Shown here piece by piece: positions 13,801 through 19,012 of a DNA stretch of 32,407 bases. Positions within the stretch are counted from its first letter, which is position 1. Each line of letters opens with the position of its first letter. The notes beneath the pieces are model-generated. The model did not search any database and was not told the origin of the DNA. It was given only the letters and a program-made list of their open reading frames with translations. Source of the stretch: SAR202 cluster bacterium (GTDB taxonomy: Bacteria > Chloroflexota > Dehalococcoidia > Lucifugimonadales > Lucifugimonadaceae); NCBI GenBank assembly GCA_008373165.1, contig RQOU01000075.1:1-32407 (forward strand), read 5' to 3'. The position numbers and the translations under genes were made by a program.

Positions 13801-14046
13801 TTAACTGACTTCTATATCGTTGACATGTGGTGCGTGTATGTTGAGTGAAGCCGTGAGAAACTGGGTCACCATATCGTGAGTTGGCACGCATTCGGGGCAT
13901 TCTTCGTTGACCCCCGGTGTGTACTTGACTTTTAGGTTGTTACCGTCCAGAGAGACTGAATCCAGTGTGCCTCCTTCAGATGCCACTAATTTCTCTATCT
14001 GTTCCAGCACGAAATCCACCTGGCTATTGTTGGTGATTTGAACCAT
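13801..14046 (-). CDS. Small NifU (Nfu) C-terminal-domain-like protein with CxxC
   Basis: 81 aa: VDFVLEQIEKLVASEGGTLDSVSLDGNNLKVKYTPGVNEECPECVPTHDMVTQFLTASLNIHAPHVNDIEVS; layout resembles an Nfu domain with CPEC in the CxxC position. Confidence 0.55.
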   Translation of the reverse strand: MVQITNNSQVDFVLEQIEKLVASEGGTLDSVSLDGNNLKVKYTPGVNEECPECVPTHDMVTQFLTASLNIHAPHVNDIEVS

Positions 14047-18154: not shown

Positions 18155-19012
18155 TCATGTGAGGTGCTCTATTGGGCAAGAAGGAACTTCAGCCCATTCT
18201 CTCCATGATCCATCGTAATCCTTAACATTTTTAAATCCGACGAGCTTCAGGGTCCAAAATCCGTGCGCCGCACGGATACCACCCTGTCAGTATGTGATCA
18301 CATTTTTATCGGTTGTGATCCCCACATCAGCAAGTAGTTTTCTGATTTCCTCGGCTGATCTCAGAACGGGGATTTCACCTCCGGTATGAAAATTGGTCCA
18401 TTCGAGATGAACTGCACCTGGGATTCTGCCACCCCTGGAACCTCCCCGTTTGTTGGTTCCGTCCCATTCGTCATCGGCTCGAACATCAAGGAGTATTGTT
18501 GACTCCTCATCAATAGCCTTCAGGACTTGATTGCGTGAAGCGAAGATTTCTGAATTTGCACTTGATGTGAATGTAGCGCTGGGTGCAATAACAGACTCCG
18601 TACTGATTTCGCGCCCTTCAGCTTTCCACTTGGGTAATCCGCCATCCAGGAACTTCACGTTCGTGTGACCGTAATAGTGCAGTGCCCACATCAACCGAAA
18701 AGAGTAGACACCTCCCGAGCGATCATATCCAATCACCGTGGTATCGTCGCCAATCCCTAAATCTGACATCGTTTCTGCGAATTGTTCAGGGCCCTGAATA
18801 TGTGTCCGGTCTTCAAGGGAAGTTTTGTAGTAATGATCTATCGGATTTACTGAACCTGGGATGTGACCTCTCTCGTACTCTTCGGGCACATCAGTGTCGA
18901 CTACACGTACGTTGGGGTCCGATATATGTTCCGCAAGCCATTCGGTGGTTACGAAGATATCGGGCATTGTGTATCCACGTTCGGTAGGTGAAGTTATCGG
19001 TTTGTCTTTCAT
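18155..19012 (-). CDS. Candidate selenocysteine-containing rhodanese (two-domain sulfurtransferase); in-frame TGA at 18287-18289 proposed as Sec
   Basis: Two rhodanese domains (RVVDTDVPEEYERGHIPGSVN...; TILLDVRADDEWDGTNKRGGSRGGRIPGAVHLEW). At the active-site loop the frame reads KNVITY-TGA-QGGIRAAHGFWTLKLVGFKNVKDYDGSWREWAEVPSCPIEHLT*, so TGA replaces the Cys of the C-x-x-G-x-R loop. A 39-nt hairpin follows immediately. The ORF track reports only 18287..19012. Start may be 19012 or 18967 (MPDIF). Confidence 0.85.
18248..18286 (-). promoter_or_regulatory. Putative bacterial SECIS element
   Basis: Minus-strand CAGGGT GGT ATCCGTGC GGC GCACGGAT TTTGG ACCCTG directly after the TGA: 6-bp outer stem, 3x5 internal loop, perfect 8-bp inner stem, G-starting apical loop beginning 18 nt after the TGA. 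Confidence 0.82.

Follow-up and report, generated by a model that had tools for sequence, protein, structure and literature searches.

A probable selenocysteine rhodanese of SAR202 bacteria and the hairpin downstream of its in-frame TGA

Rhodaneses work through a catalytic loop residue that accepts sulfane sulfur and hands it on. Described relatives of solved structure, CysA2/CysA3 of M. tuberculosis and the rhodanese of T. thermophilus (3hwi, 3aax, 1uar), share with the gene considered here a two-domain fold with the active loop in the second domain, at about 35% identity over the length; in contrast, their loops, CRIGER and CRIAER, open with a catalytic Cys, where the present gene is predicted to carry selenocysteine (Sec) in the loop UQGGIR. 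Sec versions of rhodaneses are themselves an already known kind, seen in ocean metagenomes since 2005, when a Sargasso Sea survey reported a COG2897 rhodanese-related selenoprotein from three sequences with a predicted SECIS (PMC1088965). The GOS survey of 2008 added a cd01449 family of eight together with a COG2897 entry (PMC2398784), so that the original prediction was correct in pointing to rhodanese-like candidates in metagenomic surveys. A 2022 review lists a COG2897 SseA, MQG53192.1 (PMC9312934), and a 2026 review describes rhodanese-like selenoproteins with UxxG, forms 2 and 4 (MBM9537886.1 and MCY3690685.1; PMC13188914).

How does the present gene relate to these entries? The COG2897 selenoproteins likewise come from marine bacteria, contain Sec and have a predicted bacterial SECIS (PMC1088965; PMC2398784; PMC9312934), a likeness that rests on the COG assignment and on Sec in a rhodanese (reported as AACY01016424 and MQG53192.1). 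Whereas those surveys offered few sequences without an organism, here there are SAR202 genomes, covariation and reversions. The UxxG of forms 2 and 4 recurs in UQGG, as compared by accession and Pfam description alone (PMC13188914). We did not find a previous description of the Sec form as the usual one across the SAR202 order with repeated Sec-to-Cys reversions, nor of a SECIS that constrains active-loop residues and whose hairpin is shifted 9 nt downstream in one lineage. A literature search on SAR202 and selenocysteine returned no paper on a Sec rhodanese by title, and the paper on the cultivation of Candidatus Lucifugimonas does not mention selenium (PMC10444878).

A rhodanese frame that continues through TGA

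The window, i.e. the whole analysed stretch of 32,407 nucleotides (contig RQOU01000075.1), contains on its minus strand, from 19012 to 18155, a frame for a tandem rhodanese of 285 residues with U242. Reading starts with MKDKPITSPTERGYTMPD from the ATG at 19012, a start supported by the Met residues of homologues, which align at the same place; codon 242 is a TGA (18289-18287), which gene finders would take for a stop, and the 43 open codons past it, QGGIRAAHGFWTLKLVGFKNVKDYDGSWREWAEVPSCPIEHLT, lead to a terminal TGA at 18157-18155. The extended 285-residue product proposed in the original prediction was thus confirmed on the sequence. The features of the gene are the following:

18155 to 19012, minus strand: complete coding sequence of the candidate Sec rhodanese (product of 285 aa with U242), up to and including the terminal TGA, its start supported by the aligned Met of homologues
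18617 to 18949, minus strand: N-terminal rhodanese domain (Pfam PF00581), residues 22-132, D97 replacing the catalytic Cys
18170 to 18556, minus strand: C-terminal, predicted catalytic rhodanese domain (PF00581), about residues 153-281, limits approximate and taken from alignments
18287 to 18289, minus strand: in-frame TGA, putative Sec codon 242, at the catalytic Cys position (from 138 homologue loci and solved rhodaneses)
18272 to 18289, minus strand: codons of the predicted six-residue active-site loop UQGGIR (from frame, alignment and model)

The Pfam Rhodanese model (PF00581) matches two stretches of the protein (8.3e-42), with the catalytic residue in the second, as in tandem-domain rhodaneses of the TST/SseA type. 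In the AlphaFold2 model (pLDDT 95.2, pTM 0.93) U242 sits after strand 237-241 and before helix 246-257, and the top fold matches among solved structures are M. tuberculosis CysA3 and the T. thermophilus rhodanese; U242 aligns with the loop catalytic Cys of the thiosulfate sulfurtransferases. Loop residues U, Q and R are invariant across the alignment. The Asp noted earlier at the equivalent position of the first domain (YDRSGG) is D97, and D is the commonest residue of this column (107 of 122 Sec forms, loci fetched with a DNA pattern included). Two more specific labels were rejected: that of 3-mercaptopyruvate sulfurtransferase (NF008557), whose model matches over 265 residues but reaches only 144.4 bits against a curated cut-off of 250, and that of NF041203, rhodanese-related (seleno)protein (31.9 bits vs a curated cut-off of 115).

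A homologue is present in 59 of 60 relatives searched, and 17 of the 18 genomes of the genus group have a copy with one TGA, which on inspection lies at column 242. Among 138 protein-found loci of the order this column is TGA in 110, TGC in 18 and TGT in 10, with no other codon and not a single TAA or TAG. The original placement of the TGA on the catalytic Cys of a rhodanese is borne out by these 28 Cys codons and by the match to the Cys of solved rhodaneses. The TGA is shared at this column by at least dozens of genera, and one-TGA matches, scored by presence of the TGA and not by column, occur in other families of the class as well. A Sec-specific DNA-pattern scan of species genomes gave at least 80 loci, all of them Sec rhodaneses among the matches listed, with Sec at the column in 79 of the 80 (L201 being readable after an upstream frame break). 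Most genomes among the matches listed bear the label Chloroflexota, Dehalococcoidia or SAR202; a small number go under Binatia, Desulfurellaceae, Gemmatimonadetes, Deltaproteobacteria or Tectomicrobia. Since the pattern contains the hairpin stem, loci fetched in this way do not figure in the counts of codons, conservation and covariation; they enter the D97 count and the tree of 115 proteins described below. Copy number varies: two genomes have two Sec copies each (G015, on C67 and C30; G208, on C305 and C311), and in G013, of the same genus group, no Sec copy was seen, only a distant Cys homologue.

Might the TGA be a genuine stop in a truncated or decaying gene, read through by chance or not at all, and what follows in frame a relic? 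TGA is an ordinary stop too, terminating 6 of the 28 genes listed in the window. Against this reading, only TGA and Cys codons occur at the column, the column TGA recurs across genera, a covarying hairpin (see below) lies after it, and purifying selection acts more strongly on the 43 codons behind it than on those before it, with pN/pS of 0.134 after the TGA vs 0.217 upstream (18 genes, genus group). Related genomes thus keep the TGA and show no decay behind it, the outcome on which the original prediction had staked itself, and truncation or decay was rejected on the codon counts and the downstream selection as very improbable. Even less credit is due to a sequencing or assembly error for TGC/TGT, or to a genetic code in which TGA stands for another amino acid throughout the genome. 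The window does come from a draft assembly of 138 contigs, but independently assembled genomes share its TGA, as does CP046147, the closed PacBio genome of the isolate Candidatus Lucifugimonas marina JH1073, which is among the pattern matches listed (PMC10444878). Both the TGA and the hairpin recur in this cultured organism, a member of the same genus group (loci L016 and L180), so that the TGA is no assembly error. As to reassignment, genes in the window use TGA as a normal stop, and the genome has a tRNA-Sec with anticodon tca; both explanations were rejected.

The predicted SECIS and its relocation in one family

Bacterial SECIS elements are hairpins that directly follow the TGA on its 3' side and have a small, G-bearing apical loop (PMC1088965), and a predicted structure of just this kind follows codon 242:

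18260 to 18276, minus strand: predicted SECIS core hairpin, 7-bp stem UCCGUGC / GCACGGA with loop GGC (from fold, covariation and synonymous conservation)
18248 to 18286, minus strand: whole predicted SECIS fold, minimum free energy -22.3 kcal/mol

The hairpin, AUCCGUGC-GGC-GCACGGAU, is formed by the region of codons 246-250 and spans nt 13-29 when the T of the TGA is counted as 0, which places its loop 20-22 nt from that T; the whole fold adds to this core a lower helix, CAGGGU / ACCCUG, and one A-U pair. None of 1000 synonymous recodings of the window's 42 nt folds as well, and z against recoding, taken over all loci, averages -1.40 for Sec forms, +0.97 for Cys forms and -0.07 for upstream control windows. 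Pairing in the 7-bp stem reaches 94.6% across 29 distinct sequences of the usual type, three pairs have changed on both sides, and there are 8 both-side-changed cells vs 1.5 after shuffling; covariation is 0.201 vs 0.093 shuffled (0/500), and sliding the partner abolishes the signal. Synonymous sites agree: pS is 0.28 over the first 10 codons after the TGA vs 0.75 upstream (18 genes, genus group), and at codons 246-250 codon sharing exceeds expectation by 0.39-0.72 in Sec forms (baseline 0.06, sd 0.06), in contrast to -0.03 to 0.10 in Cys forms. Compensatory changes and this extreme synonymous conservation are seen in Sec forms, and Cys forms show neither.

The element lies within the codons of the active-site loop, and the stem change from G-C to U-A brings the protein changes A248S and H250N. 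A second observation comes from family f37, where 14 loci (L099, L101, L106, L246, L247 and L249-L257) have lost the usual hairpin and kept the TGA. Their predicted hairpin, GGCGAACA-GUN-UGUUCGUC, lies 9 nt further 3', and in these loci codons 248-251, 253 and 254 are invariant, as against variable codons 243-247. Probably the old 3' arm was taken up into the new 5' arm, with the TGA retained. On the f37 tree the hairpin-position trait needs at least three changes; L248, which has the usual hairpin type, is nested among the relocated rows. The relocation is less certain than the main SECIS result, since no compensatory change was seen in the relocated stem across the 14 loci and an equally good fold is reached by 15-38 of 1000 recodings. 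Taken together, the joint loop changes (A248S with H250N) and the 9-nt move make us lean, with some reserve, towards the view that a SECIS in active-loop codons steers the evolution of the enzyme. If the move is real, a recoding element would be able to relocate without losing Sec insertion; the open-access literature on bacterial SECIS and synonymous change yielded nothing on such hairpin relocation.

Selenocysteine machinery, proposed catalysis and neighbouring genes

The genome of the window (1.94 Mb in 138 contigs, 85% complete) contains the components that the original prediction had asked for. It has one tRNA-Sec, which at 67.7 bits is far over the Rfam cut-off and which ARAGORN calls tRNA-SeC with anticodon tca, the next three Rfam loci checked being tRNA-Ser; selB (337.7 bits) and selD (374 bits) are present, and selA is a contig-edge fragment (379.8 bits). 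The selD gene of this genome (L053, 1396-2487, minus strand) has a frame ACAGUAGK that runs through a TGA and is a second candidate selenoprotein. Across the order selA was found in 201 of 250 genomes, and in 97 of 109 Sec genomes vs 15 of 24 Cys genomes (Fisher p 0.003, a test that ignores kinship and completeness); most, though not all, of the 12 Sec genomes in which it was not found are incomplete.

With the machinery, the kept TGA, the selection downstream and the closed isolate genome all in its support, the proposed Sec rhodanese gains considerably. We assign a probability of about 0.92 to a tandem rhodanese of the TST/SseA type in which the catalytic Cys is replaced by Sec, inserted by way of the SECIS, and which serves as a sulfur-transfer enzyme. 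The evidence from sequence establishes the conserved TGA, the covarying hairpin, the Sec machinery and the predicted fold; Sec insertion itself, sulfur transfer as the reaction, the donor and acceptor involved and the reason why Sec is favoured are inferred. In the proposed sequence of events, the hairpin just 3' of the UGA would recruit SelB with Sec-tRNA, and the ribosome would insert Sec and so complete the C-terminal active site, U242 becoming the first residue of the six-residue active loop UQGGIR in the folded protein. Its selenolate would most likely be loaded with sulfane sulfur by a donor, for example thiosulfate, giving an enzyme-bound Se-S intermediate from which the sulfur would pass to an acceptor, and the N-terminal domain would have a structural role.

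Could a true selenoprotein have a main reaction other than sulfur transfer, redox or peroxide-reducing, or deliver selenium? This appears unlikely, if less remote than the alternatives weighed above. Sec proteins of known function are mostly redox enzymes (PMC9312934), rhodanese folds catalyse varied reactions, the ergothioneine enzyme EanB being among the fold matches, and the gene is followed, in most genera of the family, by genes for two predicted lipoproteins, the first of them thioredoxin-like with a CVNC motif. Yet the nearest enzymes by sequence and fold are thiosulfate sulfurtransferases, the loop is without a resolving Cys (UQGG, not UxxC), and a role as selenium carrier is at odds with Cys forms in genomes without detected selA. 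The thioredoxin-like gene, moreover, is absent beside the window's gene, and its genome has only a weak match (E 1.7e-5).

In the window's family the Sec rhodanese gene is divergent from hemA, and in most genera it is followed by the two lipoprotein genes on the same strand (the second without a Pfam match) and then by genes for an M20 peptidase and a Usp protein. The window has the M20 gene directly after the Sec rhodanese. The lipoprotein pair is seen downstream at L016, L128, L131, L154, L176, L180, L194 and others, and at no locus of many other lineages. The thioredoxin-like neighbour is weakened as a functional partner, being not adjacent in the window, weakly matched in its genome and not seen at the loci of many other lineages, and the gene neighbourhood points to no partner or substrate with any firmness. 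Elsewhere in the window (13801-14046, minus strand) there is an 81-aa ORF that contains a CPEC motif and matches no Pfam family.

Sec and Cys forms in the order and their meaning

A quick tree of 115 proteins requires at least seven Sec/Cys changes, a rough minimum, and nests the Cys forms of the window's family among Sec forms. This tree has many open forks and some long branches, and some of its distant Cys rows may be paralogues. Two Cys genes, L059 and L265, keep 5 of 6 stem pairs, as expected for recent Sec-to-Cys reversions.

What does the enzyme gain from keeping selenium? The Sec and Cys forms amount to natural replicates for this question, as the hairpin has decayed in the Cys forms and no selA was found in some of their genomes. 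The relocated hairpin, for its part, would test the range over which a bacterial SECIS can move. An ocean selenoprotein known from anonymous reads is now linked with the ubiquitous SAR202 lineage of the ocean and with an organism in culture, and the Sec rhodanese provides one clear use of selenium in the genomes of the SAR202 order.
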